Assembly (NCBI GenBank): GCA_024275915.1
Contig: JAJRYG010000090.1
Span: 1-64,000 of the forward strand
Reading direction: 5' to 3'
DNA: 64,000 nt
Source of the DNA: Gammaproteobacteria bacterium
GTDB taxonomy: Bacteria; Pseudomonadota; Gammaproteobacteria; UBA6429; Thiohalophilaceae
The position numbers and the translations under genes were made by a program. Under the pieces are notes generated by a model. The model did no database searches. It saw only the letters and a list, made by a program, of their open reading frames with translations, and was not told where the DNA came from. Positions 5,304 through 59,538 of the stretch are shown one piece after another. Within the stretch, counting starts at the first letter, position 1. Each line of letters starts with the position of its first letter.

Positions 5304-5736
5304 GGTGAGGGAATCGAAACGACCGAGAACCTTGGTACGCGCACCACGTCGGCAAGCAGAACGTCTTCCCTGGAAACACATGCGTCGCCGTCAGCCAATG
5401 AGCTTCAGGTTTCGAGGCCAGGGGCGTCATTGAGTTCTGTATTGTTGATTTTTGTTTGCCTGGATGCCAGATTGATTATCGAAGCCGATGGCGGACAATA
5501 GGCTGAACAAATCGCCCAGGTTGCCAGACGAACAACCCGGCAGAAAGCAATGGGGTATCCGCTTATGCGTTTCTGGAAGCACGAAATACCAGGTGAACTT
5601 CACAGTGTGCTTGAACAAGGACAGTCTGCCCTGATTGCCCCCCCTCACCCCAGATCTCTCCAGGAGGGAGTGGGCGTTGGCACGGTGGCCACCCACAAAT
5701 TCTTCTGAAGAGTCTCATAAAAAACAGGTGACCAAT

Positions 5737-6243
5737 GTGCTAAGACAGATCACCAGACTTATCAAGGCGCTGAATTCCGATGTGGCACCGGAACAAATCA
5801 GCCTCGCAGTCTCGTTTGCCATGATAGTGGGCCTCACACCCTTCTGGAGCCTGCACAATCTTGTGGTACTGTTTCTGGTCATGATCCTGCGTGTCAATAT
5901 TGCGGCGTTCTTTGCTGTTGTTGGTCTGTTTTCTCTGCTCGCCTATCTGCTTGATCCCGTGTTCCACCAGTTTGGATACTCCCTGCTCAGGCTGGATGCC
6001 TTGAACAGCGTCTGGACGTCAATGTATAACTCGACGATCTGGCGTATCGAGAACTTCAACAACACCATCGTGATGGGTAGCCTTGTGTTTTCACTGCTTA
6101 GTTTTGTCCCTGTCTATCTGATGAGTCTGTGGGCAATAAAACGTTACAGAGAACAGTTCATGGTCTGGGTCGAAAAGCTCAAATTGACACGGTTTCTGAA
6201 AATTCAGGGTCTGGCCTCAACGATCGGTCCACATATCAAATAA
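5737..6243 (+). CDS. TIGR03546-type (DUF2062-like) membrane protein
   Basis: From the GTG at 5737 the protein is 168 residues and begins VLRQITRLIKALNSD, followed by QISLAVSFAMIVGLTPFWSLHN and several hydrophobic helices. From memory this matches the TIGR03546 family, which is encoded next to TIGR03545 proteins in gammaproteobacteria. The track start at 5635 adds a hydrophilic leader translated from repeat-rich intergenic DNA. GTG 5737 has an AGGTG ribosome binding site and aligns with the family N-terminus. The next gene begins 4 bp after its stop, so the two are surely cotranscribed. It is an inner-membrane protein of unknown biochemical role. Confidence 0.75.
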   Translation: MLRQITRLIKALNSDVAPEQISLAVSFAMIVGLTPFWSLHNLVVLFLVMILRVNIAAFFAVVGLFSLLAYLLDPVFHQFGYSLLRLDALNSVWTSMYNSTIWRIENFNNTIVMGSLVFSLLSFVPVYLMSLWAIKRYREQFMVWVEKLKLTRFLKIQGLASTIGPHIK

Positions 6244-6247
6244 GCCA

Positions 6248-8062
6248 ATGAAAAACTGGATTCGCTGGAAAGGACTGTTTGGATTTGCCATTACGGTGCT
6301 TTTGCTGGCTCTGTTTTTTGTGCTTTTTATCGATGGAATTATCAAAATCAATATTGAATCGGCAGCCAGCCGGATCGTTGGCGCCAAAGTAGAGCTGGAT
6401 AGCGCCGATTTTCATTTTTATCCACTGGCGATGGAGCTGGGCAGACTGCAGGTTACCGATCCGCAACGACCGATGCGCAATATTGTCGAGATCCAGAAAG
6501 TCAGCTTCAATCTCGATGGGCTGAATCTGCTCAGGCGCAAGATATTGATCAATGAAATGCAGGTGGATGGTGTCAGGTTCGATACACCGCGCAGGTCAAG
6601 TGGTGCGCTCAGTCAAGCAGGACATGCAGCGGGAACAAGGGCCTCGGAAAAAGCAAAAGAAAAATCTGGCAGACTGCCGGATATCCGTATCCCCGATGCG
6701 GATAAAATTCTGGCCCGCGAAGATCTGACAATCCTGAAACAGGCTGAAGATTTAAAGAAGAACATCGGTGAGAGCCAGAAGAAATGGGAAGCGATGAGGA
6801 AAAAACTGCCAACAAAAGGCCGCATTGACGAATATGGAAAACGACTGGAAAAGATAAGGAAAATAAATGTCAGGGACATCGGCCAACTTGCCAGTGCGGT
6901 AAAGGAACTCAATCAGCTAGAAAGGGACATTAAAGCCGATCTTGCCAACGTAGACAGATCCCGGAAGCAAATAAAGCAAGATTTGCAGAAGCTGGACATA
7001 CAGGTCAAGGCTCTGAAAGATTCACCCCAACAGGAATTAAGGCGCCTGCTTGACAAATATTCCCTGTCGGATGACCGCCTGGGCAATATCAGCGAGCTGC
7101 TGTTTGGAAACAGGGCCAAAAAATATGTCACCATCGCGCTTGCCTGGTATAAAAAGCTGGAACCCCTGTTAGCCTATGTGGATATAGCCAGTGAACAGCC
7201 ACAGCCCAGACAGCGAGGCAGGGGTGTGGACGTCCGCTTCAGGGAATTCAATCCCAGCCCCGATTTTCTGGCCAGGGAAATACGCGCCTCTATTGATACC
7301 AGGGCAGGCAGTTTCAGTGGCAAGATTCTGAATTTGACCAATGAACAGAATCTGATCCGAAAACCGCTGACACTGAACTTTGCCGGGCAAAATTTGCCAG
7401 GAATCGATTCGCTTCATGTTGCTGGCACATTCAACCGCATCGATCCAGCCGAGGCGAAAGATCGATTGAAATTATCGATGAAAAATTATCGGTTGACCGA
7501 GTATACACTTCTGGACAGTGTAGATTCAAGCCTGTCTCTAGACAGGGCAAAAGCAGATATCAGGCTGGATGCACAGCGTATCAACAAGAATATTATGGCG
7601 GATTTTAAAGTGTATATACATGCTATTGAATACAATACCAGGGACAGTGAAAATGAACTTGCCTCCATGTTTCTGTCATCGATAAGGAATAGCCGTGAAT
7701 TCAGGGTTGATGCAAGTCTGCAAGGCACCCTGGAAAGCTATACTGTACGTATCAGCTCGGATATGGATGAGCGCCTGAAAGCGAACATGAAAAAATACAT
7801 GGATACCCGTCTGGCAGGATTCAGGAAGGAGCTGAAAGAAAAAATAAACAGGCAGGTTGGCAAGTCTGTCAATGAAGTGAATCTTCAATATGCAAATCTG
7901 CAGTCAGAGGTTGAAAAGGAAATTTCTGCCCGCAGGAATGAACTGCAAAAGCAACTCAAATCCGTCGAGGCGGAAATCAGGAAGAAAGAGAAACAGGCAA
8001 CAGGTAAAGCCAGAGACAAGCTGGAAAAGAACATCAAGGGTCTGCTGGACAAATACAAATAA
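6248..8062 (+). CDS. TIGR03545-type membrane-anchored coiled-coil protein
   Basis: The protein is 604 residues. It has one N-terminal membrane helix (about residues 7-30, GLFGFAITVLLLALFFVLFI), then an AsmA-like beta segment (about 30-110), a Lys/Glu-rich coiled coil (about 130-270), a middle region with RLDKYSLSDDRLG-type sequence, and a second basic coiled coil from about residue 510 to the end. This order fits the TIGR03545 family, partner of TIGR03546 encoded just upstream. The bulk is predicted periplasmic. AsmA-like proteins with one anchor are often linked to lipid or envelope transport, but that role is only inferred here. Base composition is lower in GC than in neighbours such as polA. 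Confidence 0.75.
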   Translation: MKNWIRWKGLFGFAITVLLLALFFVLFIDGIIKINIESAASRIVGAKVELDSADFHFYPLAMELGRLQVTDPQRPMRNIVEIQKVSFNLDGLNLLRRKILINEMQVDGVRFDTPRRSSGALSQAGHAAGTRASEKAKEKSGRLPDIRIPDADKILAREDLTILKQAEDLKKNIGESQKKWEAMRKKLPTKGRIDEYGKRLEKIRKINVRDIGQLASAVKELNQLERDIKADLANVDRSRKQIKQDLQKLDIQVKALKDSPQQELRRLLDKYSLSDDRLGNISELLFGNRAKKYVTIALAWYKKLEPLLAYVDIASEQPQPRQRGRGVDVRFREFNPSPDFLAREIRASIDTRAGSFSGKILNLTNEQNLIRKPLTLNFAGQNLPGIDSLHVAGTFNRIDPAEAKDRLKLSMKNYRLTEYTLLDSVDSSLSLDRAKADIRLDAQRINKNIMADFKVYIHAIEYNTRDSENELASMFLSSIRNSREFRVDASLQGTLESYTVRISSDMDERLKANMKKYMDTRLAGFRKELKEKINRQVGKSVNEVNLQYANLQSEVEKEISARRNELQKQLKSVEAEIRKKEKQATGKARDKLEKNIKGLLDKYK

Positions 8063-36545: not shown

Positions 36546-36591
36546 ACATTGCACCGGCTGGCTTGTTGCACATACAGGGCGCAATTACCGT

Positions 36592-36597
36592 TATAAT
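36592..36597 (+). promoter_or_regulatory. Possible -10 box of the jetABCD operon
   Basis: A perfect TATAAT lies 29 bp upstream of the jetA ATG. TTGCAC at 36566-36571 is a possible -35 but the 20-bp spacer is long, so the assignment is tentative. Confidence 0.35.
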
Positions 36598-36625
36598 GTG
36601 GCACACATTCCAGCAGATCGGTTCC

Positions 36626-38080
36626 ATGTTCTTCTCTGACCAGCGCAAGCACTTTTTCCGCCCCTTCTTCGGCAAGTACCGGGAGCAGGTGGTGGAATGT
36701 CTGCGTATCCTGTACGCCCGTCTGTACGGCTCGCTGGCCGACTACAACCGGGCCTTCACCCGCGACCAGGTGCTGGAGGCGTTCAGCGAGGCCATCACCC
36801 GCACCCCGGTGCTGAACGAGGACGAGGAGGACTTCAGCGCGCCGGTACGCACCGAGCGCGAGCAGGCCAACTGGATCCTCAACCTGTTGCTGGAGCATGG
36901 CTGGGTCGAGCGGCACGCCGACGAGGCCACCTTGCAAAGCAGTTATGCTTTCAGCCGGGTGGGGCGCCTGTTTACCCAACCCATGGTGGAGACCGCCGGT
37001 GGCGGCTTTCGCACCCGCCACCGCAATACGCGCAATACCCGCAATGCCCTGCAGTCCTTTCTGGAACGGGGCGAGGTCTATGATCTGCTCGACGCCTACG
37101 AATACTCGGAGCGCATCATCAGCGACTTCAGTGACGTGATCGCCGAGCTGGATGAACGCAAGCGCATGCTGGTGCGTGAAGTGGAAGCCCAGCAGGTGAT
37201 CCAGCAGGCCAGTGACGAGTTTTTCGATTTCATGGAAAAGCGCTTCATGCCCGATCTGTCGGTGCGCCTGTCGGCCGACAGCGTGGAGAAGTACCGTGAC
37301 GAGATCCAGGCCCTGATCAGCAAGGCACGGCGCAAGCAGAAGAAGTTCAAGGCCAGCGCCGAGATCGAACTGCGCAAGCTGGCGCCGGAATTATTACAGG
37401 ATAAAAACGTCTCGCTGTATTTCCGGGTACTCGACAACATCGAATCACGCATCCACAGCGCCAGTGCCATCATGCTGCCGGCACTGCGCAATGCCCTGCA
37501 CAGCTTCACCCGCCGCGCCGACATCATCATCCGCCAGCTCAGCTACACCCTCGGTGGCGAGCAGGGGGATCTGCTCAGTCTGTGCCAGCAGCTGGGCCAG
37601 TTGCCCGAAGAACGCCAGCAACGGGCATTGGCATCGGTAGCCGAGCCCATGGCCACGCTGAACGTCGCCGTGGCGGATCCGACCTCGCTGCGGCTGTTTG
37701 TCGGGCGCCAGCGGCGAGTGGTAAACACGGCCACCGAGGAACATGCCCCCATGGACAAGGCCTCGCGGCGTGAGCTGTTCATCGAGCAGGCCCTGCAGAA
37801 GGCCTTTGTGGTCAACAATCGTGAGGTGGGTCAGTTCATCCTCGGCGCCCTCAAGAGTGGCCACCGCATTCACAGCAAGCAGTTGCCCGTACAAAGTGCC
37901 CGTGACCTGCTCATGGCGGCGCATGCCATCGAGGCCGGTGCCGCGGGACGCACTTCCAGTGAATTCCGTTTTTGCGTCGAGCCTACCGGCGACCGGGTGC
38001 GGACCGATTACTATGCCATGACCGACGACTTCGTCATCGAGCTGGTGGAACGGGATAGCGAGGAGCGCCATGCTGACTGA
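36626..38080 (+). CDS. jetA: Wadjet system JetA-like (kleisin, MksF/MukF analogue)
   Basis: From ATG 36626 the protein is 484 residues and begins MFFSDQRKHFFRPFFGKYREQVVECL, which I recognise as the JetA family of Wadjet systems. It is largely alpha-helical, with a winged-helix-like N-terminal part and a predicted coiled middle (ELDERKRMLVREVEAQQVIQQ). In Wadjet the kleisin bridges the SMC heads of JetC and carries JetB. Its 3' end overlaps jetB by 11 bp. The identity rests on the N-terminal signature plus the complete jetBCD context. The track start at 36563 is a TTG upstream of the -10 box and is rejected. Confidence 0.85.
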   Translation: MFFSDQRKHFFRPFFGKYREQVVECLRILYARLYGSLADYNRAFTRDQVLEAFSEAITRTPVLNEDEEDFSAPVRTEREQANWILNLLLEHGWVERHADEATLQSSYAFSRVGRLFTQPMVETAGGGFRTRHRNTRNTRNALQSFLERGEVYDLLDAYEYSERIISDFSDVIAELDERKRMLVREVEAQQVIQQASDEFFDFMEKRFMPDLSVRLSADSVEKYRDEIQALISKARRKQKKFKASAEIELRKLAPELLQDKNVSLYFRVLDNIESRIHSASAIMLPALRNALHSFTRRADIIIRQLSYTLGGEQGDLLSLCQQLGQLPEERQQRALASVAEPMATLNVAVADPTSLRLFVGRQRRVVNTATEEHAPMDKASRRELFIEQALQKAFVVNNREVGQFILGALKSGHRIHSKQLPVQSARDLLMAAHAIEAGAAGRTSSEFRFCVEPTGDRVRTDYYAMTDDFVIELVERDSEERHAD

Positions 38081-38771
38081 AGTCCTTGCCCGGGAACTGG
38101 AAAAGCAAAACCTCGGACTCGACGAGTTTCGCGAGCTGGTCATTCGCCTGCTCAACTACGGCGTGCTGTGCCGTGACGAGAGCCAGACCGAGCAGCAGCT
38201 CTACGACCGTTACCTGCGCATCGCCGATTTGGTGCAGGACTACCTGGCCGTCATGGACATTCGCGTGTTTCACGATTCCCGCTTCGAATACCTGCGCCTG
38301 TATCCGCCAGGCAGCCAGGTGCCGGGCATGGACGAGGCAGAAACCTCGGCCTTTGCCGGCAGCCTGCGCCAACGCCTCAGCCAGCAGGAAGTGGCCATGG
38401 TGCTGGTGCTGCGCCTGCAGTACGACAAGGCTCTGCGTGAGGGCCAGGTGGATGACAAGGGCTATGTAACCGAGTCCATCGAGGCCCTGGGCATTGCCAT
38501 GAAGAATATCCTTGCCCGCAGCCTGCCGGAAAAGCTCACCGAGCGAAAGCAGCTGTTTACCCGCCTGCGCCGTCTGCGGCTCATCGAGTTTCGCAGCGAG
38601 GAAGATCTGATCAGCGGCGAAGCCTGGTTGAAGATCCACCCCATGATCGTCAACTTCGTCAACGACGAAGCCGTGGCGGCACTGGCGACTGCCATCACAG
38701 GCGGGTCCGAAGGCGATGACAAAGAAGCGCCGGTCGAAGATATCCTGCTCGATACGCCACTGGACGGTTAA
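38070..38771 (+). CDS. jetB: Wadjet system JetB-like, DUF4194 (KITE, MksE/MukE analogue)
   Basis: The 233-residue protein is helical with a tandem winged-helix pattern, including LRLQYDKALREGQVDDKGYVTESIEAL and LTERKQLFTRLRRLRLIEF, typical of DUF4194. It is the MukE/KITE-like subunit that binds the kleisin. The gene overlaps jetA by 11 bp and ends 3 bp before jetC, so the three are translated as a unit. Confidence 0.87.
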   Translation: MLTEVLARELEKQNLGLDEFRELVIRLLNYGVLCRDESQTEQQLYDRYLRIADLVQDYLAVMDIRVFHDSRFEYLRLYPPGSQVPGMDEAETSAFAGSLRQRLSQQEVAMVLVLRLQYDKALREGQVDDKGYVTESIEALGIAMKNILARSLPEKLTERKQLFTRLRRLRLIEFRSEEDLISGEAWLKIHPMIVNFVNDEAVAALATAITGGSEGDDKEAPVEDILLDTPLDG

Positions 38772-38774
38772 ACC

Positions 38775-41700
38775 ATGTTTCTGAAAAAATTCATCTTCGT
38801 CAACTGGGGCAATATTCCCAATCTGGAATTCGAGCTGGGTCCCATCAACCTGCTGTCTGGCGGCAACGGCTCGGGCAAGACCACCGCCGCCGATGCCATC
38901 CAGACCATCATGACAGCAGCCCACGAAAACCTGTTCCAGTACAACCCCGGTCAGGACGAGACCACCCAGCGCGGCCGGGGTGGCAAGCGGGTGCGTACCC
39001 TGGCCTCCTATGTGCTCGGTTGTGACGACGGCAGTTATGCGCGGCTGGATCCCACCGATGGGTACCTGGCCGCGGTGTTCAGCCCCACCCGTGGTGAGTC
39101 GGCGGAAGTGTTTACCGCCGTGATCGGCATCCGTGCTTTTCTGGACAATACCGGCGGGCAGAGCGTGGCCCGTCAGGACGAGCTGTTGTTTCTGATCCTG
39201 CCCGGTGAGGAGCTGGGCCTCGGCCACTTCGTGCGCGAAGACAAGGCGGGCAAGTACGTTACGCCCCTGGACAAGATCCAGCACCTGCTGATCCGCGAGT
39301 TCGGCAAGCGCCATGAGAAGTACGACACCAAGAAGGCCTATCTGCGCCGCCTGTACGGCGCCCTGCGCGGCCTGCCCGACAGTGTTGCCGAGCAGGAGGC
39401 CACGGCTGCGGCACGGGCCTTCTCACGCTTCATGGCCTACAAGCCGGTACGCAGCATCAACGACTTCGTGGCCCACGAGATCCTCGAACGCAGGGATCTG
39501 GGTGAGGCCATCCGCTCCATCTCCGGCCAGCTCAAGACCATCCATGCCATGGAGCGCGATGCGGCACGACTGGTGGAATCCATCGAAATCCTGGAGACCG
39601 CCGAGCAGTACGCCAGCCGCTACATCGGGCAGTGGATAGAACTCAACACGCTGGATTTCACCTTGGCCCAGCACGATTACCTGCAACGCCAGCGCGAGTA
39701 TGTCAAGGCCAAGAAGCAGCAGGGCGACTACCGTCGTTCCCTCAAGGAAAACGAGGCCGAGACCGAGCTGGCCGAACAACGCCTGCAGCAACTGCATGAA
39801 CAGCGGGTGCAACTGGAAGCTCAGCGCATGGGAATCAGCGCCCTGCAGCAAAAGGATGAACTGGAACAGCAGCGTGAACAGCAACAGAAGACCCTCATCG
39901 GCATGGCCCGCGTATTACTGGAGCAGGACAATGCGCTGGAAAAAAACCTGCAGGCAACCCGCACCATCGAAGCGGACCTGCAGGATGCCAGCCTGAGCGA
40001 AGATCTGCCCACGGTGGTGGATCTGCAGATCCGCCAGCTGGCCCACAGACTGGTGCAGGAAGGTGGACGCGGTGATCTGGACATCCATGCCCTGCTGCAA
40101 AAGGACATGATGAACGACCTGTCGCCACTGGAGCAGCATCTGGATCAGGCCCAGGCTGCCCAGCGTCTGCACAATCAGTGGCTCGAGCAATGGCAACAGC
40201 AGGCTGAACAGATCGGGGGTCCGTCCCTGCTCGACCAGCTTGCCGAGCTGGCGCACAAGCGCAAGAGCCGTTACGAGCAGTTGAAGAGCCAGGTGCGGCA
40301 GAAGGAACAGGACATCGAGCGCCTGCAGGCGAAGAAGGTCAGCTACCCGGCCTTCGTCGAGCGGGCCCTGGCCGCCATCGTTCGCGACTGTCCCCAGGCC
40401 GATCCGCGCGTGCTGTGTGATCATGTGGAAGTCAGCGATCCCCGCTGGCAGATGGCCATCGAGGGCTATCTTGGCATGGCGCGGTTTTCCATCCTCGTCG
40501 ATGCCGATTACGAGGCCGAAGCCATTCGCATCGTCCGCGCCCTGCCGGGGCGGGACAACCGCGCCCGTATCATCCAGGGCAGCAAGGCCCAGCGCGATGC
40601 CGAGCGGATGAAACTGCCGGCTGATTCCATCATCCACCTGCTGGACTTCAGCCACGCCACCGCCCGCCACTACCTGGTTGCCAGCTATGGCAACGTGGTG
40701 CAGGTGCCTTCTGCCGAGGAACTTCGCCACACCCGCCGCGGGCTTACCGCCGACGGCATGGGTGCCGGCGGCTACAGCATGTTCCGCTGCGACCTGCCCG
40801 ATGGTGAGCTGGTGTTCGGGGTCGCAGCCCGCGAACGGGCGCTCAAGGCCAAGCAGGACGAACTGGCCAGTCTGCAGGAACAGTGGCAGCAGGCCAATGA
40901 CCGCATGCAAGTGGTGGCGCGCCTGCTGGACAACGTGAAAAGACTGCAACCGCTGGACTATGCCGACACCATCACCCGGATGCTGACGGTGCACCGTGAA
41001 CTGCAGACGCTGGAGAACCTGCTGGCTCAGCTGGATCTTTCCGAGCACAAGGATCTGGAAGACAAACTGCAAAACCTGCGTGAACAGACAAGAACCCTGC
41101 AGCAGCAACTGGACAGCCTGAAGGTGGCAAAGGGCGAGTTGCAGGAAAAGATGCGCAAGACCACCGAGCGTTGCAAGAAGCTGGCCGATGAGCAGGATGC
41201 CACCCAGCAGGTGGTGGAAAGCTGCGAACAGAATCTGCGTGCCATCGTCACCCAGTGGCCCGAATTCGATGCCGACGCCCGTCTCGCCGAGGCCGAACAG
41301 GAAGCCGAAAATCTCAATGCCGAGATCGCCCGCAACGCCCATGAGGAGATCGAGCACGATCTGCGCACTCTGGAACGGCGCATGGACGAGGCCATACAGC
41401 AGCACAACCAGCACTGTCAGCCCGGAGATGCCATCGTCTACCACAGCTTCAATGGCGACTACGATGTAACCCTGTTCGGTGCCATCTGCGGTCTGCAGCA
41501 GGATCTGGACCGGGTCTACAACCGACTCAAGAACAACATCCTGGTGGAAAAATACAATCAGCTGCGTGAGCTCAAGAACAGCTTCAACAACGCCTTTGTC
41601 ACCCATTTCTGCCATACCATCCATCAGGCCATCAATGATGGCAAGCGCCAGATCGATCTGCTCAACAAGGAGCTGCAGCACCACAGATTCGGTGATGACC

Positions 41701-42419
41701 GCGAGAGCTTCCGCTTTGGCAGTGACTGGATACCCGAGTTCAAGGACTATGCAAATTTCTTCAAGGATGTGATCAAGCAGCCGGGAGTGGGCGATGAGGT
41801 GGATCTGTTCGAGATGGAACTGTCCGCCAGGTCACAGAAGGTCAGAGAAGAACTGATGCAGATGCTGCTCGATGAAGACGAGAACAAGGCCCTGCGCGAA
41901 CTGGATCGTATCGGCGACTACCGCAACTATCGCAAGTACGAAATCTACAAGGAAGTACAAGGCAAGGAACCCATCGCCCTGAGTGAATACGGTACCGGCA
42001 GCGGTGGGCAGCTGGAAACCCCGGCCTATATCATCCGCTCCGCCGCCATCACCTCCGCCTTCCGTTTTGCCGAAGGCAGCAGCCACCTGCGCATGGTGCT
42101 GGTGGATGAAGCCTTTTCCAAGATGGATGAAACCCGCTCCCGGGAAGTCATCGACTACCTGACCGGGACCCTGGGCCTGCAACTGATCTTCATCATGCCC
42201 ACCAGCAAGTGCGGCCCCTTCATGGATCTGATCAGCAACGAATTCGTCTTTGCCAAGTGCCCAAGCGAACAGCCACGCGGCCAGCTCCACACCCGCGTAC
42301 TGGTGGACCGCAAGCAATGCAACACCGAAAAGATCCAGCAGCTCTGGGCCAACCACAAACGCACTGTCTACCAGCAGGCGGAGCTGGATTTCATGGACGA
42401 GGTGTTGGAAGCAGAGTAA
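38775..42419 (+). CDS. jetC: Wadjet system JetC-like SMC ATPase (MksB/MukB analogue)
   Basis: The 1214-residue ATPase has a Walker A GGNGSGKTT at residues 29-37, long Gln/Glu-rich coiled coils (about 290-520 and 690-930), a hinge-like globular segment around 530-690 (HVEVSDPRWQMAIEGYLGMA), an ABC signature YGTGSGGQLE near 1075 and Walker B MVLVDEAFSKMDETR near 1107. This is the SMC/MukB head-coil-hinge layout. In Wadjet, JetC uses ATP to extrude DNA loops, and small circular DNA is then cut by JetD. All catalytic motifs are intact, so the motor should be active. Confidence 0.92.
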   Translation: MFLKKFIFVNWGNIPNLEFELGPINLLSGGNGSGKTTAADAIQTIMTAAHENLFQYNPGQDETTQRGRGGKRVRTLASYVLGCDDGSYARLDPTDGYLAAVFSPTRGESAEVFTAVIGIRAFLDNTGGQSVARQDELLFLILPGEELGLGHFVREDKAGKYVTPLDKIQHLLIREFGKRHEKYDTKKAYLRRLYGALRGLPDSVAEQEATAAARAFSRFMAYKPVRSINDFVAHEILERRDLGEAIRSISGQLKTIHAMERDAARLVESIEILETAEQYASRYIGQWIELNTLDFTLAQHDYLQRQREYVKAKKQQGDYRRSLKENEAETELAEQRLQQLHEQRVQLEAQRMGISALQQKDELEQQREQQQKTLIGMARVLLEQDNALEKNLQATRTIEADLQDASLSEDLPTVVDLQIRQLAHRLVQEGGRGDLDIHALLQKDMMNDLSPLEQHLDQAQAAQRLHNQWLEQWQQQAEQIGGPSLLDQLAELAHKRKSRYEQLKSQVRQKEQDIERLQAKKVSYPAFVERALAAIVRDCPQADPRVLCDHVEVSDPRWQMAIEGYLGMARFSILVDADYEAEAIRIVRALPGRDNRARIIQGSKAQRDAERMKLPADSIIHLLDFSHATARHYLVASYGNVVQVPSAEELRHTRRGLTADGMGAGGYSMFRCDLPDGELVFGVAARERALKAKQDELASLQEQWQQANDRMQVVARLLDNVKRLQPLDYADTITRMLTVHRELQTLENLLAQLDLSEHKDLEDKLQNLREQTRTLQQQLDSLKVAKGELQEKMRKTTERCKKLADEQDATQQVVESCEQNLRAIVTQWPEFDADARLAEAEQEAENLNAEIARNAHEEIEHDLRTLERRMDEAIQQHNQHCQPGDAIVYHSFNGDYDVTLFGAICGLQQDLDRVYNRLKNNILVEKYNQLRELKNSFNNAFVTHFCHTIHQAINDGKRQIDLLNKELQHHRFGDDRESFRFGSDWIPEFKDYANFFKDVIKQPGVGDEVDLFEMELSARSQKVREELMQMLLDEDENKALRELDRIGDYRNYRKYEIYKEVQGKEPIALSEYGTGSGGQLETPAYIIRSAAITSAFRFAEGSSHLRMVLVDEAFSKMDETRSREVIDYLTGTLGLQLIFIMPTSKCGPFMDLISNEFVFAKCPSEQPRGQLHTRVLVDRKQCNTEKIQQLWANHKRTVYQQAELDFMDEVLEAE

Positions 42420-42437
42420 ATGTGATAACCACCGATT

Positions 42438-42463
42438 CAAGGTACAAGATGAAAGATACAAGG
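42438..42463. repeat. A-rich heptamer-like repeat between jetC and jetD
   Basis: The stretch ggtacaagatgaaagatac repeats an AAGATRM unit at about 7-bp spacing and resembles the array at 62109-62143. No terminator is seen in the 117-bp gap. Confidence 0.35.
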
Positions 42464-42536
42464 GGAGTTACCACCGCTGGCATCAGGGCCATGCCTGAAT
42501 CCGGTTGCATTTACCTTGTGCCGGAGCACTGAACCC

Positions 42537-43682
42537 ATGTCTGCGCCCCCTGCCTGGCTGGACGATGCCCCCGAACTTCGCAAGCTGCTGGGAACCTTTC
42601 TTGACCGGCTGGATCGGCAGCCAGCCAGCGCGCGTAAAAATGCCTTGGCCCTGACCTTGAACGACAAGACCCTGCCCGAGCTGTTCGGGCCGGGCGAGCA
42701 GGCCGACAGGTTGTGGGACTGGCTGCGCAGTCTGGCCGAGGATCACGGTGTCCTTGCGATCCGGCCTGACGACAAGCGCAACCCGCTGGACCCAGAATAT
42801 CTGGGTGCGCGCTTGCGCCTGCGCAAAGGGGGGGAGGCGATCCTGCGCGCCTGGCTGGGACGCCCGGCGGGCCGCTCGCCCCTGCAGCAGTGGAGGAAGA
42901 GCGTGACGGCGGCGGGGCAGTTTGCCGGCAGCGTTGCGAAGCTGGCGGCTCATCGCATCGTTCTGCCGGGCTGGAGCGACGCCCAGGTGGTGGCAGGCTT
43001 CGTCTGCCTGGGCCGCCAGCCCGGTGGCCTGAGCCTGCGCCAGTTGAGCAGCCGCTGCTTTGCCGGCGATTCCAAGTTTCTCGACAACCGCGAGGATCTG
43101 ATCCGTGAACTGTACCCGGAACGGGTCATCGCACCACGGCCGGTGATGGTCAGTGTGTTTCTGCCAGCCAGGATCGAGGGCGTGCTGTTCATCGAAAACC
43201 AGGACAGTTACCTGCAGGCCGTGAGCGACGAATTGGGCACACGGCACAAGTTCGCTCTGGTGTACGCGGCGGGTTTCCGTGGCAGCGCAGGGCGGATACG
43301 CCAGCGTGAAGGTGTGAGCCTGCACTACCACGGTGCCAGCGCCATGAACGGGCAGGCGCAACTGGAGGCCTGGTGGTTCGGGCCGGACACCGCCGGCTGG
43401 CCCTGCTGGTTCTGGGGTGACCTGGACTATGCCGGCATGGGGATCCTCAAGGCCTTCAGACAGCGCTTCGGCAACATGCAGGCCTGGCAGCCGGGCTACC
43501 GGCCCATGCTCGACCGGCTGCAAAAGGGCCAGGGCCACGCCCCGGCCATGACCGACAAACAGGCCCAGACCGATCCCGGCAGCACCGGCTGCGACTATGC
43601 CGATACCGTACTGCTACCGCTCATGCGCCAGCATGGCATGTTCGTGGATCAGGAAGGCACGCAAGGGGTGAGTGACGGGTGA
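42537..43682 (+). CDS. jetD: Wadjet system JetD-like TOPRIM nuclease (DUF3322/DUF2220, MksG analogue)
   Basis: From ATG 42537 the protein is 381 residues. The N-terminal half is an arm-like DUF3322-type region. The C-terminal DUF2220 domain is TOPRIM-like, with the acidic residue in LFIENQDSYLQAV near 219 and the DxD in FWGDLDYAGMGIL near 296. JetD cleaves plasmid-sized DNA trapped by the JetABC motor. The gene starts 117 bp after jetC, unlike the tight jetABC spacing, and the gap contains A-rich heptamer-like repeats. The last codons (GVSDG) and stop are supplied by a GTGACGA heptamer island. Confidence 0.88.
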   Translation: MSAPPAWLDDAPELRKLLGTFLDRLDRQPASARKNALALTLNDKTLPELFGPGEQADRLWDWLRSLAEDHGVLAIRPDDKRNPLDPEYLGARLRLRKGGEAILRAWLGRPAGRSPLQQWRKSVTAAGQFAGSVAKLAAHRIVLPGWSDAQVVAGFVCLGRQPGGLSLRQLSSRCFAGDSKFLDNREDLIRELYPERVIAPRPVMVSVFLPARIEGVLFIENQDSYLQAVSDELGTRHKFALVYAAGFRGSAGRIRQREGVSLHYHGASAMNGQAQLEAWWFGPDTAGWPCWFWGDLDYAGMGILKAFRQRFGNMQAWQPGYRPMLDRLQKGQGHAPAMTDKQAQTDPGSTGCDYADTVLLPLMRQHGMFVDQEGTQGVSDG

Positions 43683-43690: not shown

Positions 43691-43703
43691 AGGGATATTC
43701 CGT

Positions 43704-43840
43704 CATGCCAGCGCAGGCTGGCATCTAGGAAGGGGTGGGATTGAGAAAAAGGGCAAATTCGTTGCCACGAACCCCCTTGTTGCCATCGACAAGCCACCAT
43801 GCCCGCCGAAGCCTCCCTGGATTCCGGCCTTCGCCGGAAT
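43704..43840. repeat. Two REP-like palindromes after jetD
   Basis: ATGCCAGCGCAGGCTGGCAT (43704-43723) and ATTCCGGCCTTCGCCGGAAT (43821-43840) are short perfect or near-perfect palindromes of common proteobacterial types. The 293-bp gap between jetD and the convergent cytochrome-porin gene holds no ORF of merit. Confidence 0.65.
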
Positions 43841-43975
43841 GACGATGGAACATGGTACCGTCAGGGTTCCCGCGACCGATGCGCCTCCATGCGTCGGCAC
43901 ATCCTGCAAGAATATAATCCGGCGGTAGGATGCCGCTGAGCAAGTCGAAGCGCATCGAACGTCCGCCAGGGGGGG

Positions 43976-45268
43976 TCAGAACGCTGCGTCGAAGCCTACC
44001 AGGGCGTAGTTCTCCGAGGTCAGGTGGCCGGTCCAGTACTGGCCGGTTTTATCCTGTACGTCGAGGAAGTCGCCATTGACTTCGATAATGCCCTTGACGT
44101 TGCGCATGAAGTAATAGGATGCCGTGAAGGTCAGCGCGTTGATGTCAATGCCTTCATAGACCGTGTCGGTATTTTTCAGATCGCCGGCATCGGCATAGTT
44201 GTAGAGGAAGGAAAAGACCCAGCGCTGGCTATGTACGTAATCCACCCCGGCAAAGCTACCAAACCAGTCATAGCTCTTGCCTACATCTATGAAGTCATCC
44301 CACTGATTCCAGATGGCCTGCACGAACCAGTAGACCTTGGCGTTGACGTTACCCGAAAGATCCACGCCATAGGCGATCTTCGGCGTATCCCGCGTTCCGC
44401 TGCTGGAGATCCCCGCATAGTTCTTCTGGGTACCGGCATAGCCGAACAGGCCGATACTGACCGGGCCGGCATCACCACCGAGGCGGCAGTAGAAAGCCTT
44501 GCCGTTGTCGTTGTCGAACAGATGGTCGGGACGTTTGTAGCCGGGACTGTTGATGGCGTAGTTCTGGTCGATGCCATTGCCATTGACCCAGCCCAGTGCC
44601 AGGTCGACCACATTGAAGTCGTAGTTGAAGGTGACGCCACGATCATAGGTCAGGCCGGCCATGCGGTAGACCATGAAATCCTGGAAGGTGAGGCGGGTTT
44701 CGCGGGGGAACATCAGATCGGACACCTGGTACTGGCCCAGCATCATGCCAATCTTGCTGCCAAACAGATCGTCATGGCTGAACCAGGCATCCTCGACGAT
44801 CACCTCACCATTGCCGCCCTTTTCGGCAAAGATGGCATAGAAGTAGTAGCTGATATGGTCCGACAGGGGTGCGCTGGAGAGCAGCTTGATGAGGTAGGGG
44901 CCCTGGAAGTCGGTGTTGGCGCTGACTTCCTCGCCGGTTTCGATGTTGATGTTCCTGGCTTCGCGCTGCTGCACATAGGCCTGGGCGCGGATGGCCAGGG
45001 GCACGCTGTCGGGCAGGGCCAGCATGTCGTCCCCGGTGGGGGTGGTGCTGTCTTTCCAGTTGGGCAAGCGGTAGTTGGACTTGACGAAATTTTCTCCAAA
45101 TTCATTCAGGCGCGGGAAGGCGGCGTGACAGGCGGTACAGGTCAGGCTGTATTTTCGGGCAAAGGCAGGAATGGCCTCGCTGCTGGTGGGGAGCATGCTC
45201 AACAGCAGTGCAATGAGCAGGCTGCCGAGAATCCAGTGACGTGAATGGATATTGTTCAGATATGGCAT
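43976..45268 (-). CDS. Cyc2-like outer-membrane monohaem cytochrome-porin
   Basis: The 430-residue protein has a signal peptide (WILGSLLIALLLSMLPTSSEA), then at the start of the mature chain AIPAFARKYSLTCTACHAAF with one CxxCH haem site (residues 44-48) and FPRLNEFGENFVKSNYRLP. The rest is a run of amphipathic aromatic beta strands ending in FDAAF, the C-terminal Phe expected of an outer-membrane barrel. A haem domain followed by a porin in one chain is the architecture of Cyc2, the iron-oxidising outer-membrane cytochrome, whose N-terminus is similar. Related proteins of unknown function also exist, so electron transfer across the outer membrane is inferred. A GGAGAGAG ribosome binding site supports the start. 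Confidence 0.75.
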   Translation of the reverse strand: MPYLNNIHSRHWILGSLLIALLLSMLPTSSEAIPAFARKYSLTCTACHAAFPRLNEFGENFVKSNYRLPNWKDSTTPTGDDMLALPDSVPLAIRAQAYVQQREARNINIETGEEVSANTDFQGPYLIKLLSSAPLSDHISYYFYAIFAEKGGNGEVIVEDAWFSHDDLFGSKIGMMLGQYQVSDLMFPRETRLTFQDFMVYRMAGLTYDRGVTFNYDFNVVDLALGWVNGNGIDQNYAINSPGYKRPDHLFDNDNGKAFYCRLGGDAGPVSIGLFGYAGTQKNYAGISSSGTRDTPKIAYGVDLSGNVNAKVYWFVQAIWNQWDDFIDVGKSYDWFGSFAGVDYVHSQRWVFSFLYNYADAGDLKNTDTVYEGIDINALTFTASYYFMRNVKGIIEVNGDFLDVQDKTGQYWTGHLTSENYALVGFDAAF

Positions 45269-45730
45269 GATGAATACTCTCTCCGGGTATTGGGTTATGG
45301 GCAGGGCAAGCGCTTACTCACCTTGCGCCGGCCACGAACCGTCTATGAGGCAGTATGATCTTGCCCTGGGGAATGGGCAGATCATGGCAGTGCCTTGTCG
45401 AACTACGCCATAAGCATAGCCATAATTGCTGAATTTAACCTTAAATCGGTTTTTGCCGGGTAAAAATACTTTTTGTCGCTTCAATAGTAAGGGTAATTTG
45501 TATAGGCTGAGGGCTCTGAATGCATCGCGGGAGGTATGTGTCAGGCCGGTTTCTGTGCCGTTCGATAACGAAAGGTTGCAATTACAAATCTGTAAATACA
45601 TTCGCAGTGTCTTAAATGGTATATTGATGACGCTTTATCAGGCTGTTGAAAAAGTCCCGCCGTGGGCATTTCCAGCCGTATCCTGGAGGTAGGAATGTCA
45701 AGCCAGGTTTTACAAGTGAGGGGAGTGATC
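45269..45730. other. Divergent promoter region with a dispersed repeat
   Basis: This 462-bp gap separates two divergent outer-membrane protein genes. It is AT-rich at 45420-45630 and contains a GTTGAAAAA element at 45636-45687. No ORF is convincing and no promoter pair can be placed with confidence. Confidence 0.5.
45636..45687. repeat. GTTGAAAAA dispersed element, copy F
   Basis: The left arm TATCAGGCTGTTGAAAAAGTCC is clear; the right arm (tttccagccgtatcctgg) is degenerate. Confidence 0.55.
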
Positions 45731-46555
45731 ATGACAACAAGAATACGCAAACAACTGGCAATGGCGTGCCTGTTTACCGCCGTGACAGGTCTGGCAATGG
45801 CCGAGGTGGTACCCGACAGGCTCAAGGTGATGCTGGGCGGTTACAAGGTGCAACGTTATGACACCCAGGTTGCCTGGAACAGCCCGGGTATCATCGGTGT
45901 GACCATCGACCTCGGCAAGGATCTGGGGGTTTCTGCCGAAAGTGTGGTTCTCAGATTTGATGGCTACTACCGTTTTACCCCCGAGCACCGCATCGAATTT
46001 GGCTGGCTTTCGATTAATTCCAGTGGTTCACGAAACGTGACAGGTGAGATTCCCTGGCCACCGGACGACCCGATCCCTGTGGGAACGCGGGTAGATTCAT
46101 ATCTGGATACGGATACCTACCGGGTTGGCTATGCCTGGTCCTTTTACCACAACGAAAAGGTCGAGCTGTCCCTTGCTGCCGGTTTGCACATTACCCAGGT
46201 AAGTGTCGGGATCAGGGCTGAAGTCACCGGTGGCGGTACTGTCGGCAGTGGCGCAGAAGCCCTGGAGGTGACGGCGCCCCTGCCCGTAGTGGGTTACCGT
46301 GTCAGCTATAACGTCAATCCCCGTCTCAAGGTCATGTTGCTCTCTGACGTGTTCTCCATGAATTACAGTGACACCAGTGGTACCTACCAGGACATGAGCA
46401 TCCTGGCCGAGTACCGGGTTATCCACAACATGAGCATCGGCGGTGGTTTCAACTACAATGTCCTGAATGTGACATCGAATGCTGATGATGGTACCTCCCT
46501 GTCATTCAAGAACACCGTATCGGGTTTCATGTTGTACCTGGCGGCAGGTTTCTGA
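45731..46555 (+). CDS. Outer-membrane beta-barrel protein of unknown function
   Basis: From ATG 45731 (GAGGGGAG ribosome binding site) the protein is 274 residues. A signal peptide (KQLAMACLFTAVTGLAMA) is followed by alternating beta strands with aromatic girdle residues (RFDGYYRFTPEHRIEFGW, YRVGYAWSFYHNEKVELSLAAGLHI) and a C-terminal YLAAGF ending in Phe, all typical of a small outer-membrane barrel. The family is not identified. It is divergent from the Cyc2-like gene, and both products are outer-membrane barrels, so joint regulation is possible. Confidence 0.75.
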   Translation: MTTRIRKQLAMACLFTAVTGLAMAEVVPDRLKVMLGGYKVQRYDTQVAWNSPGIIGVTIDLGKDLGVSAESVVLRFDGYYRFTPEHRIEFGWLSINSSGSRNVTGEIPWPPDDPIPVGTRVDSYLDTDTYRVGYAWSFYHNEKVELSLAAGLHITQVSVGIRAEVTGGGTVGSGAEALEVTAPLPVVGYRVSYNVNPRLKVMLLSDVFSMNYSDTSGTYQDMSILAEYRVIHNMSIGGGFNYNVLNVTSNADDGTSLSFKNTVSGFMLYLAAGF

Positions 46556-54838: not shown

Positions 54839-54976
54839 GCCCACCGACTTGACCGTATCAGGCCCGGATTAAGAAGGATGTGCATTTTTTGCCCTGGTGC
54901 CCGGAGTCGAGTTTAACATGACGAAAAATTTCCGTGGTACCAAATAATCACCTAATATATTTTGGAGCAAGTAAAT

Positions 54977-55297
54977 ATGAACAAGATCGTTACTATCGCC
55001 GCTGCTGTTACCCTGATGGGTGCTTTTTCTACTGCCGCCATGGCCGATGCCGGTGAAAAAACCTACAAGGCGGCCTGCTTTGCCTGTCACGGTACGGGTG
55101 CAGCCGGTGCCCCCAAGTTCGGTGACAAGGCAGCATGGGGCCCCCGTATTGCCAAGGGTCTGGATACGCTGCATACCCATGCCATCAAGGGCTTCAAGGG
55201 CAAGAAAGGCTTCATGCCTGCCAAGGGTGGTCGTGCCGATCTGAGCGATGCCGATGTCAAGGCAGCTGTCGACTACATGGTTGCTCACAGCAAGTAA
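54977..55297 (+). CDS. Monohaem cytochrome c5-like protein
   Basis: The 106-residue periplasmic cytochrome has a signal peptide (KIVTIAAAVTLMGAFSTAAMA), one CFACHGTG haem site and a Met ligand in FMPAKGG, the cytochrome c5 pattern. It would carry electrons between the bc1-type complex and a terminal oxidase or another acceptor. ATG 54977 has a GGAG ribosome binding site 9 bp upstream; the track start at 54962 is an upstream TTG. The cytochrome c4 gene follows after 72 bp, which include a small cccggt-ta-accggg hairpin. Confidence 0.92.
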   Translation: MNKIVTIAAAVTLMGAFSTAAMADAGEKTYKAACFACHGTGAAGAPKFGDKAAWGPRIAKGLDTLHTHAIKGFKGKKGFMPAKGGRADLSDADVKAAVDYMVAHSK

Positions 55298-55369: not shown

Positions 55370-55978
55370 ATGAAGTATACAGCACTTATTTCCATGTTCA
55401 CCCTGTTTGCTCTGGCCACAGGAGCCCAAGCGGCAGGCAATGCAGCGGCAGGGCAGACCAAGGCCCAGAACTGCGTTGGTTGTCACGGCGTGAACGGTAA
55501 CAGTACTAATCCTGCCTGGCCAAAACTGGCAGGGCAGCATGAGGGATATCTTGTTAAACAGTTGGGCGATTTCAAAGCAGGCAAGACCCGCCAGGACCCT
55601 CTGATGAGTGCCCAGGCGGCAGGCCTGTCTGACCAAGACATGGCAGATCTCGGTGCCTATTTTTCCAGCCAGAAAATGAGCCCTGGCGTTGCGGATGAAG
55701 CCAAGCTGGAACTGGGCCAGAAAATCTACCGCGCAGGCAACAAGGCCAGTGGCGTTTCTGCCTGCATGGCCTGTCACAGCCCCACCGGTGCCGGCAACCC
55801 GCCCGCCAAATTCCCGCGCCTGAGTGGTCAGCACGCGGCCTATGTGGCCAAGGCGCTGAAAGACTTCCGCAGTGGTGCCCGCAGCAATGATGCCGGCAAG
55901 ATGATGCGTAATGTAGCTGCGCACATGACTGACGAAGAAATCGAAGCGGTTGCCTCGTATGTACAGGGCCTGAAATAA
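55370..55978 (+). CDS. Dihaem cytochrome c4
   Basis: The 202-residue protein has a signal peptide and two homologous cytochrome domains with haem sites CVGCHGVNG (first half) and CMACHSPTG (second half), each followed by a Met-ligand region (MSAQAAGLSDQDM; MMRNVAAHMTDEEI). This is the cytochrome c4 family, a periplasmic or membrane-associated electron carrier to cbb3 or aa3 oxidases. In Pseudomonas a cytochrome c4 gene lies between engB and dsbA (from memory), the same context as here. Confidence 0.94.
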   Translation: MKYTALISMFTLFALATGAQAAGNAAAGQTKAQNCVGCHGVNGNSTNPAWPKLAGQHEGYLVKQLGDFKAGKTRQDPLMSAQAAGLSDQDMADLGAYFSSQKMSPGVADEAKLELGQKIYRAGNKASGVSACMACHSPTGAGNPPAKFPRLSGQHAAYVAKALKDFRSGARSNDAGKMMRNVAAHMTDEEIEAVASYVQGLK

Positions 55979-56050: not shown

Positions 56051-56143
56051 GCCGGCAAAAGGCCGTTGTTTCCCGAAAGCAACAGCCTGTCAGGTGAAAT
56101 GCTGGCCTGGCCATGAGGAATATGCCGGCGAGATGTGCTGAAA

Positions 56144-58237
56144 ATGGATAATCGTGATCCGCGCCGCCTGATCCGGCATAATCGACATTCCTCCAGCCAT
56201 GACAGACCGACCGTGACCCAGTCCCCGCATAAAAAACACCCCCAACACCTGAGCCTGCTGGAATTCCTCGGTTCCATGAACCTGGCGATCACCATTCTTG
56301 TGGTGCTGGCCATTGCTTCCATCATTGGTACCGTGTTGCAGCAGAATCAGCCCTACACGGACTACATCATCAAGTTCGGACCCTTCTGGCATGAGGTGTT
56401 CAAGGCCCTGGATTTGTACGATGTCTATGGTTCACTGTGGTTCCTGGGCCTGCTGGGCTTTTTGCTGCTCAGCACCAGTGTCTGCATCTATCGCAATGCC
56501 CCGGTGATGTGGCGTGACATGCGTGTTTTCCGCATGAAGGTCACACCCAAATCCCTGCGCCTGATGCACAACGTGCACGAACTGGAAACCGATCAGCCCT
56601 CAGAAACGGTCCGTCAGAAGGCCGAGCAGTTTTTGACCCGGCAGGGGTTTCGTTTCAAAAGCAGGCAGGATGGGGAACTGACCATTCTTTCGGCCATGAA
56701 AGGTGGCTGGAACCGCATGGGCTATATCTTTACCCATACGGGCATCGTGGTGATCTGCATCGGTGGTCTGATGGACGGTAACCTGATCTTCACCATCAAG
56801 GAATGGCGTGACCAGATCCGTCTGGAAACCCGCAACATTCCGGTTTCGGAAGTCCCGGCCATCAGTCGCCTGAAACCTGACGAGAGTTTTTCCTTCCGGG
56901 GCTCCGTGTCGATCCCCGAAGGTGAGCGGGCCAATGTGGTCTTTCTCAACGTGCGTGACGGCTACCTGGTGCAGGAGCTGCCCTTTGCCATCGAACTCAA
57001 GGATTTTCGTATCGAGCATTATCCATCGGGTCAGCCCAAGTCCTTCGAAAGTGACCTGGTGATCCACGATGATCAGCTGGACAAGCCGCTGGAAAAGACC
57101 ATCGCCGTCAATCATCCGCTGATCTATCGGGGCTATGCCATCTACCAGGCCAGCTTTGCCGATGGGGGCTCGAAACTCGAATTTCGCCTCTGGCCCTTCT
57201 ATGAACGACAAGACGAGACCACCGATCTGGAGATGACCGTCAACAGCAGTGTCGAACTCGATACCCCTGCCGGCCCCATGACCCTGGAGCTGGACAGTTT
57301 CAAGGAATTCAACGTCTTTCCTGCCAGCGAGCCGGAGCAGAAGGGCAAGCAGTTCGTCAACTACGGTCCCAGCGTGGTGTTCCGACTGCGTGATGCCAGC
57401 GGTCAGGCCCGTGAATACCAGAACTACATGTCGCCGATCCTGCAGGATGGACGCTATGTGTTCGTCACCGGGGTACGCGAATCTTCGGCTGAGCCGTTTC
57501 GTTTTCTCTCCATTCCCGCCGACAGGGACATGAGCCTGAAGCGCTTCATGGCGTTCCACCGTCTGATCCAGGATACTGATCGAGTCCGGCAGATCGCCGT
57601 CATGAGTACCCGTGCCGCCATGAGCACGGCCAACCTGCAGGACGAGAAGCTGCAGGCCAATGTGGTCAACTCGATGATGCGTCTGCTCAAGCTGTTCAAT
57701 GAGGGGGGCTATGTGGCGCTGGATGACTTCATCCGTCAGAGCGTGCCGGAAGAAAAACAGATGAATGTCGGCCAGGCCTACATGAAGATCCTGCAGAACC
57801 TGCTGCGGGATCTGTACATGCAGCTGCTCATCGATGAAGGCGTGGATCTGAGTCAGGGGGTGAGTGATCAGGATGCGGCATTCTACGATGATGCGGTCAA
57901 CAACCTGGCCGGTATCGGGGCCTATGGGGCGCCTTTCTACCTGCAACTCACCGATTACGAACTGCGCGAGGCCACCGGCCTGCAGATCACCCGTTCACCG
58001 GGCAAGGATCTGGTCTATCTGGGCAGTTTTCTGTTGATCGTGGGTATTTTCATGATGTTCTACATTGCCCACCAGCGCCTGTGGATCCTCATCTGGCCGG
58101 GCAACGAGGGCAAAACGGCGGTACTGTTCAGTGGAGCCGGTGATCGCAACCGGCGGGATTTCACGGAACGATTCGTCTTGCTGGCAGACAAACTTGCCGG
58201 ATTGTTGCAAAAAAATCGTTCCGGGACGGGGGACTGA
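56144..58237 (+). CDS. resB: Cytochrome c biogenesis protein ResB (CcsB-like, system II)
   Basis: One half of the system II haem-attachment machinery in the inner membrane. The protein (about 697 residues; GTG 56213 is an alternative start) has early helices in LGSMNLAITILVVLAIASIIGTVLQQNQP, SLWFLGLLGFLLLSTSVCIYRN and MGYIFTHTGIVVICIGGLMDG. A very large periplasmic domain (about residues 220-620) follows, then a last helix VYLGSFLLIVGIFMMFYIAHQR. It lies upstream of the ccsA partner and downstream of two cytochrome genes, its likely clients. Confidence 0.95.
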   Translation: MDNRDPRRLIRHNRHSSSHDRPTVTQSPHKKHPQHLSLLEFLGSMNLAITILVVLAIASIIGTVLQQNQPYTDYIIKFGPFWHEVFKALDLYDVYGSLWFLGLLGFLLLSTSVCIYRNAPVMWRDMRVFRMKVTPKSLRLMHNVHELETDQPSETVRQKAEQFLTRQGFRFKSRQDGELTILSAMKGGWNRMGYIFTHTGIVVICIGGLMDGNLIFTIKEWRDQIRLETRNIPVSEVPAISRLKPDESFSFRGSVSIPEGERANVVFLNVRDGYLVQELPFAIELKDFRIEHYPSGQPKSFESDLVIHDDQLDKPLEKTIAVNHPLIYRGYAIYQASFADGGSKLEFRLWPFYERQDETTDLEMTVNSSVELDTPAGPMTLELDSFKEFNVFPASEPEQKGKQFVNYGPSVVFRLRDASGQAREYQNYMSPILQDGRYVFVTGVRESSAEPFRFLSIPADRDMSLKRFMAFHRLIQDTDRVRQIAVMSTRAAMSTANLQDEKLQANVVNSMMRLLKLFNEGGYVALDDFIRQSVPEEKQMNVGQAYMKILQNLLRDLYMQLLIDEGVDLSQGVSDQDAAFYDDAVNNLAGIGAYGAPFYLQLTDYELREATGLQITRSPGKDLVYLGSFLLIVGIFMMFYIAHQRLWILIWPGNEGKTAVLFSGAGDRNRRDFTERFVLLADKLAGLLQKNRSGTGD

Positions 58238-58359: not shown

Positions 58360-59538
58360 ATGTCAGTACCCGAAAGTGTCATGAATGAAAACAGCGAGCA
58401 GGGCGGTTTTCTCGCCCGCCACAGCGTCTACGACTGGATTTTTGCCGTGCTGCTGCTGGCCGGCTCTGTGGTGGCCTGGCGCAAATACACCTACCTGATG
58501 GATGGTTACGAGGTGGGGATCCTGTTTGGGACCGCCGTGTCACTGGTGGGTCTGGGCTGGTTCTGGAAGCCGGTGCGCACCCTGATGCTGGCGGTGGCGG
58601 CCCTGAGCCTGTTTGCGGTGTGGCTGTATGGCAATGATCTGGCCCTGGCCGAGAGCAATTTCTTCCTCAAGTTTCTCATCTCCAGCCAGTCGGCCATCAT
58701 GTGGATGAGTGCCCTGTTCTTCATGGCCACGGCAGCGTATTTCATCCACCTGTTCAGCCGCAACGAATTCGTCGGCAAGGTGGCCACGGCCATGGTCTGG
58801 TCGGCCACCACCCTGTGCTTCGTCGGTCTAATGGTGCGCTGGCGTGAGTCCTACCTCATCCATATCGATGTGGGCCACATACCGGTCAGCAACCTGTATG
58901 AAGTGTTCATCCTGTTCGCCATCATTACCGCCCTCATCTATCTGTATTACGAAGCCCGCTATCGAACCAGGACCATGGGTGCCTTTGCCCTGCTGGTGAT
59001 CTCCGCTGCGGTGGGCTTTCTGCTCTGGTACCATTTTGCCAAGGATGCCAGTGGCATCCAGCCGTTGGTACCGGCACTGCAGAGTTACTGGATGAAAATC
59101 CATGTACCGGCCAACTTCGTTGGCTATGGCGCTTTTGGCCTGGCGGCCATGCTGGGGCTGGCCTACCTGATCAAGGACAGCGCCGTGCGGCGCAACCCGG
59201 AAGGCCTGCTGGCCAGGCGTCTGCCGGAGCTGGACATGCTTGATGACGTGATGCACAAGGCCATTGCCCTTGGGTTCGCCTTCTTTACCATTGCCACGGT
59301 GCTGGGTGCCATGTGGGCCGCCGAAGCCTGGGGGGGGTACTGGTCCTGGGATCCCAAGGAAACCTGGGCGCTGATCGTCTGGCTCAACTATGCTGCCTGG
59401 CTGCACATGCGCCTGACCAAGGGCTGGCGTGGCCGGCCACTGGCCTGGTGGGCGGTGATCGGTCTGTTTGTCACCACCTTTGCCTTTCTGGGGGTCAACA
59501 TGTTCCTCTCGGGTCTGCATTCCTACGGCGAGCTGTAG
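58360..59538 (+). CDS. ccsA: Cytochrome c biogenesis protein CcsA (ResC)
   Basis: The 392-residue membrane protein carries the haem-handling WWD signature WGGYWSWDPKETWALI near residue 320 and the conserved His-containing helices (WLHMRLTKGWRG; VPANFVGYGAFGLAAMLGLAYL). With ResB it exports haem and attaches it to apocytochromes c. The gene starts 122 bp after resB, and the ACGAGG ribosome binding site supports the ATG. Confidence 0.95.
   Translation: MSVPESVMNENSEQGGFLARHSVYDWIFAVLLLAGSVVAWRKYTYLMDGYEVGILFGTAVSLVGLGWFWKPVRTLMLAVAALSLFAVWLYGNDLALAESNFFLKFLISSQSAIMWMSALFFMATAAYFIHLFSRNEFVGKVATAMVWSATTLCFVGLMVRWRESYLIHIDVGHIPVSNLYEVFILFAIITALIYLYYEARYRTRTMGAFALLVISAAVGFLLWYHFAKDASGIQPLVPALQSYWMKIHVPANFVGYGAFGLAAMLGLAYLIKDSAVRRNPEGLLARRLPELDMLDDVMHKAIALGFAFFTIATVLGAMWAAEAWGGYWSWDPKETWALIVWLNYAAWLHMRLTKGWRGRPLAWWAVIGLFVTTFAFLGVNMFLSGLHSYGEL

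Follow-up and report, generated by a model that had tools for sequence, protein, structure and literature searches.

The 64,000-nucleotide stretch of DNA analysed here (the window) carries on its minus strand, at 43976..45268, an open reading frame for a Cyc2-type cytochrome-porin of 430 aa, with an ATG start and the stop codon within these coordinates; a plus-strand frame over 43976-45268 was rejected as a shadow frame. The translation contains a single CXXCH (C44-H48), found in AIPAFARKYSLTCTACH, and the chain runs from a hydrophobic signal peptide, ending between SSEA and IPAF, through IPAFARKYSLTCTACHAAFPRLNEFG and then a barrel-like part that continues to the C-terminal GFDAAF. From its N-terminus onward, the gene is organized as follows, all on the minus strand:

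45173..45268, minus strand: signal peptide, residues 1-32, predicted as read from the sequence, with cleavage probably after SSEA
45149..45175, minus strand: AIPAFARKY, corresponding to the AXPXFAR[Q/K][T/Y] consensus (translation compared with PMC8406198)
45125..45139, minus strand: CTACH haem-attachment site, residues 44-48, invariant in 67 of 67 aligned rows
45107..45115, minus strand: PRL, corresponding to the PXL motif, four residues past CXXCH (translation compared with PMC8406198)
44996..45172, minus strand: mature haem domain, residues 33-91, helical in the predicted model and aligned by hhalign to Mariprofundus Cyc2 up to ...DDxLxLP
44636..44737, minus strand: conserved segment GQYQVSDLMFPRETRLTFQDFMVYRMAGLTYDRG, residues 178-211, with two short helices between strands
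43979..44995, minus strand: predicted 16-strand porin barrel, residues 92-430, with a terminal Phe (AlphaFold2, Foldseek)

Searches of Pfam, NCBIfam and PDB sequences with this protein returned no match. The earlier note had described a chain with one haem site near its start and a barrel ending in Phe, and this description is borne out by the minus-strand translation, the alignment and the AlphaFold2 model. The same note had pointed to c4 and c5 cytochromes and to System II cytochrome c maturation, all of which were indeed identified between 54.9 and 59.5 kb of the window:

54962..55297, plus strand: monohaem c5-type cytochrome, candidate periplasmic partner (Cytochrome_CBB3, 1.1e-17)
55370..55978, plus strand: dihaem c4-type cytochrome, candidate periplasmic partner (two Cytochrom_C stretches; PdsA at 2.8e-19, below its cut-off)
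56135..58237, plus strand: ResB, System II cytochrome c maturation (PF05140, 1.3e-136)
58360..59538, plus strand: haem-handling System II subunit, named CcsB in NCBIfam (TIGR03144, 259 bits, over the cut-off)

Elsewhere in the window genome, whose assembly is 77% complete, RuBisCO, SoxB and several haem-copper oxidase subunits are encoded. As to the immediate surroundings, PADLOC recognizes a complete type I Wadjet system (JetA-JetB-JetC-JetD) at 36563-43682 on the plus strand, the end of which adjoins the 3' end of the cytochrome-porin gene, on the opposite strand. The short palindromes CGTCATGCCAGCGCAGGCTGGCATC and ATTCCGGCCTTCGCCGGAATGAC, each present once in the window, lie between jetD and this 3' end, at 43701-43844. 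On the other side, a divergent gene (45662-46555, plus strand) encodes a 297-aa outer-membrane-like protein. A homolog of the latter, 35% identical, was found 267 bp downstream of one ortholog (L104); since this is the only other locus where the two adjoin, and the orientation there is opposite, its product is not claimed as a partner.

Twenty homologs with 51-71% identity were found in the searched genomes, a few of them incomplete at contig ends; they come from the window's family, from across the class and, in a single case, from a genome of another class in the phylum. Public species genomes, in which loci were recruited via the patterns SDLMF[PA]RE and YFY[GA]I[FL]AE, added 80 ortholog loci, nearly all aligned along the mature chain, and the agreement of both sets over this part identifies 43976-45268 as a real gene. 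Hosts include Thiohalophilus thiocyanatoxydans, Thiohalobacter thiocyanaticus, Thiobacillus MAGs, Thioalkalivibrio sp. XN8, Microbulbifer (five genomes) and Wenzhouxiangella; MAGs labelled Arcobacter, Persephonella, Bdellovibrionales and Deltaproteobacteria were left out of the distribution evidence as possible contamination. On plasmids, tblastn retrieved two Caballeronia records only, matching the haem domain. Conservation of the haem site among homologues, on which the earlier note had made its reading depend, is complete: C44, C47 and H48 are invariant in the 21 rows of the first alignment and throughout the 67-row ortholog alignment. S183, D184, L185, M186, R189 and E190 are likewise invariant in the first alignment, whose 21 rows were recruited without the SDLM/RE pattern, while conservation at SDLMF[PA]RE and YFY[GA]I[FL]AE in the 67-row alignment is inflated, the loci having been recruited by these very patterns.

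Cyc2 is recognized by the AXPXFAR[Q/K][T/Y] motif, which is described as unique to it, by CXXCH and PXL, by a length of at least 365 residues and by a fused porin (PMC8406198). The window protein reads AIPAFARKY-SLT-CTACH-AAF-PRL, with the unique motif upstream of a single CXXCH and PXL four residues downstream, and at 430 aa it exceeds the minimal length; the fused porin, of 16 strands in strain PV-1, is present as a prediction (AlphaFold2, Foldseek). Among species-genome orthologs, the motif is found in its strict form in 47 of 78 and in a relaxed form in all 78. With one detected Cyc2-type protein from each of two f207 genomes, taken as Mariprofundus CP-5 and CP-8, as the Cyc2 reference, the haem domain gave 61% identity over 36 aa by blastp (E 2e-11), and hhalign of the approximately 90-residue domain gave E 6.4e-15 over 89 columns. 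An HMM built on Mariprofundus Cyc2 and relatives, ten sequences in total, scored 51 bits, nearly all contributed by the haem domain, and a profile comparison restricted to the barrel detected no significant homology with Mariprofundus Cyc2, the barrel not being alignable. By these sequence comparisons, the haem domain is homologous to that of the Cyc2 of these Mariprofundus iron oxidisers.

The fold predicted by AlphaFold2 from the 67-row alignment (mean pLDDT 79, pTM 0.76) has helices within residues 35-74, followed by 16 long strands spread over residues 92-429. Foldseek against the PDB matched 16-strand porins such as OmpF, OmpC and OmpU (E about 1e-10 to 1e-12, TM-score by target about 0.61-0.67) and also AlgE, and a search of a viral fold library returned nothing further than porins. 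The 16-strand barrel that the earlier note had expected is thus supported by prediction, but the haem plug that it had placed inside is not confirmed: residues 29-60, the haem region, have low pLDDT and the model is without haem, so that it does not position the cofactor. Within the conserved segment 178-211, helices were modelled at 182-185 and 199-204; this segment may form an inner loop facing the haem, with M186 as a candidate distal ligand.

In a maximum-likelihood tree of 57 proteins, midpoint-rooted, with Mariprofundus CP-5/CP-8 as the Cluster 1 reference and without named Gallionellaceae or Chlorobium sequences, the window protein belongs to a 22-row clade (support 100/100) whose stem measures 1.19 changes per column and which lies apart from Mariprofundus. 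With this reference it thus falls outside Cluster 1, the clade of neutrophilic iron oxidisers. On the aligned sequences the unity of the 22-row clade is well supported, while the deep branching order is unsure because of the midpoint rooting and the poorly alignable barrel columns. To our knowledge, this clade contains no characterised protein. Relatedness to Cyc2, proposed in the earlier note, therefore stands as regards architecture, hallmarks and haem-domain homology, but not as regards the barrel, which has no detectable sequence homology, or membership of the Mariprofundus clade. In one MAG (L153), two Cyc2-type genes lie side by side (4671-5948 and 6188-7444), one in the window's clade and the other on the side of the tree that holds Cluster 1.

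Gene neighbourhoods in other genomes show two recurrent arrangements. Thirteen loci have, immediately downstream and at -20 to +29 bp, a gene for a product of about 170-200 aa, and the two members of this group that were scanned both match the PEGA domain. The PEGA-type gene of L129 (9241-9786), for instance, is operonic with the cytochrome-porin gene, the other loci being L058, L121, L127, L130, L138, L143, L144, L145, L148, L154, L157 and L159. This PEGA-type protein has a conserved C-terminal segment, RRLRQLQVLQELLDEGLIS in most. The partner was sought and not found in the window genome (assembly 77% complete). Such a tight operon, together with the porin fold returned by Foldseek, would suit a substrate porin or a sensor, in which the haem would be structural or would sense gas or redox state instead of carrying current and the PEGA protein would provide a tie to envelope structure. 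However, the haem site is invariant, the haem domain is homologous to that of a demonstrated redox protein, and no signalling partner is conserved throughout the clade, making this explanation quite improbable.

The second arrangement involves redox genes. In L101 and L126, whose orthologs are 66% identical, the cytochrome-porin gene abuts an operon encoding b561, SHP, the dihaem cytochrome DHC, a PepSY protein, a response regulator and a sensor kinase, located upstream in one case and downstream in the other, and b561 adjoins the gene in L132 and L137. SHP operons with a b-type cytochrome, a dihaem cytochrome and two-component genes are known, with quinol as their presumed reductant (PMC2909971). 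In Allochromatium vinosum grown on pyrite, genes for a dihaem cytochrome and b561 are strongly up-regulated (PMC11267869), and these may correspond to the SHP operon. The protein could accordingly serve an outward or two-way conduit, from quinol via b561 and dihaem cytochrome, or via c4/c5, to the haem and then to acceptors outside the cell (Fe(III), humics, O2 chemistry), for redox balance in heterotrophs and lithotrophs alike, which would also agree with hosts ranging from sulfur oxidisers to Microbulbifer. However, the full SHP operon adjoins in only 2 of 86 loci, a minority pattern and an association noticed after the fact; most loci are without b561, SHP or DHC neighbours, and DHC is missing from 11 of the 15 ortholog-bearing genomes checked, as it is from the window genome in its 77% complete assembly. 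In addition, a single haem in a narrow pore would fit a soluble partner only (after PMC8406198). We regard outward or two-way transfer as unlikely. In two relatives from the window's own family (L053 and L054), the cytochrome-porin gene adjoins yihA, followed by c5.

The distribution of the clade also bears on the donor. When 15 ortholog-bearing genomes, of unstated completeness, were searched for RuBisCO, there was no match in the five Microbulbifer genomes and Thioalkalivibrio sp. XN8, and the matches in three others were weak (52-71 bits). The clade, also present in sulfur and thiocyanate oxidisers, is therefore not tied to autotrophy and, given its Microbulbifer members, is no marker of iron lithotrophy. 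Cyc2 itself serves as a genomic marker for iron oxidation. Since the window clade carries the published motif and yet stands apart, with Microbulbifer hosts lacking a RuBisCO match, calls of iron lithotrophy that are based on the motif could be wrong for its members.

These data have to be weighed against a true Fe(II) oxidase serving lithotrophy in the window organism, like the Cyc2 of Mariprofundus and Acidithiobacillus. The haem domain and motif held in common with Cyc2 are in its favour, as are RuBisCO and oxidases in the window genome. Cluster III Cyc2 has moreover been reported from Thiohalomonadales, the order that includes Thiohalophilus, in a MAG with RuBisCO proposed to be an iron oxidiser (PMC9769843), and Ca. 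Siderophilus nitratireducens, from a related candidate order, has a Cluster 3 cyc2 and is also proposed to oxidise iron (PMC10993476). On the other hand, the clade is separate from Mariprofundus Cyc2 with a non-alignable barrel, orthologs occur in the Microbulbifer genomes without RuBisCO, and the function of Cluster 3 is the most uncertain according to the authors who verified Cyc2 (PMC8406198). Overall, such an Fe(II) oxidase appears rather doubtful, and iron is a putative electron donor.

The interpretation that we consider likely is that of a Cyc2-type outer-membrane cytochrome-porin acting as a one-haem electron conduit, with an inward route to periplasmic cytochromes and oxidase. Architecture, haem-domain homology, conservation, a predicted barrel and partner genes in the genome all provide computed support. 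The yihA-c5 neighbourhood in relatives, the b561-SHP-DHC operon abutting the gene in L101 and L126, and a 77% complete assembly with no MtrA/MtoA-type decahaem above the cut-off also speak in its favour. According to this model, the protein would be exported and receive one covalent N-terminal haem from the System II proteins, whose genes lie about 11 kb from its own. Its 16-strand barrel would be plugged at the periplasmic mouth by the haem domain, a position suggested by the analogy to Cyc2. Electrons could then come from a small reduced solute that enters the barrel and gives them up to the haem; the next acceptor would be a periplasmic cytochrome, in the simplest case the c5/c4 pair, and the last a haem-copper oxidase. 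The host encodes SoxB and RuBisCO, and the conduit might provide it with auxiliary electron uptake beside sulfur oxidation. Fe2+ is the leading single guess for the donor, albeit a tentative one with somewhat less than even chances. The distance of the clade and the lack of recognisable barrel homology with Mariprofundus Cyc2 count against the inward conduit, as do the rarity of adjacent redox genes and the frequent absence of DHC, and the five Microbulbifer genomes argue against a dedicated lithotrophic role. One could also envisage, with fairly low probability, that the clade is a general one-haem electron gate of gammaproteobacteria and not an iron oxidase, used by heterotrophs and sulfur oxidisers; in some lineages it would be connected to the quinone pool via b561 and dihaem cytochromes, and in others it would have the PEGA protein as a companion.

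As Cyc2-type proteins had already been reported in Thiohalomonadales, this is a known kind of protein. What is added here is a delimited clade, its Microbulbifer hosts without RuBisCO and two recurrent neighbourhoods, for which a limited literature search found no description. Cultured hosts (Thiohalophilus, Thiohalobacter, Microbulbifer, Wenzhouxiangella) make the function of one Cyc2-type branch directly testable.

Among known systems, Cluster 1 Cyc2, for which function has been shown biochemically in the case of strain PV-1, is the natural reference. The Mariprofundus proteins and the window protein share a signal peptide, AXPXFAR[Q/K][T/Y], one CXXCH, PXL, DDxLxLP after a homologous haem domain, and a porin of 16 predicted strands in about 400-430 aa. 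They differ in motif detail, the window protein having ARKY/AFPRLN where Cluster 1 has ARQT/SFPALN, and the window clade is set apart by its long stem, its unalignable barrel and hosts that extend beyond iron oxidisers and autotrophs. Cluster 3 homologs (Leptospirillum Cyt572, Ca. Tenderia electrophaga, Ca. Siderophilus and the Thiohalomonadales MAG), compared through the descriptions given in the papers, are alike in architecture; in Ca. Tenderia, cyc2 has been found to respond to the potential of the cathode (PMC5371394). Many probable Zetaproteobacteria (L070-L094, family code f207) possess, besides the Cluster 1 type, a paralog of the type EAIPVFARKYGMxCNSCHTMFPKLTKMG. This paralog gives the best profile-profile match (E 8.5e-19 over 392 columns, the whole chain), which is not significant once the haem domain is removed; it forms a distinct clade, yet one on the same side of the midpoint-rooted tree as the window protein. 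As for decahaem systems, the best MtrA/MtoA (DmsE)-type match in the window genome (assembly 77% complete) reached 36.7 bits against a cut-off of 192.2. MtrAB, MtoAB and PioAB likewise move electrons over the outer membrane via a barrel but, unlike the window protein, do so with separate decahaem and larger porin chains, the latter of 26 strands (PMC10654088).
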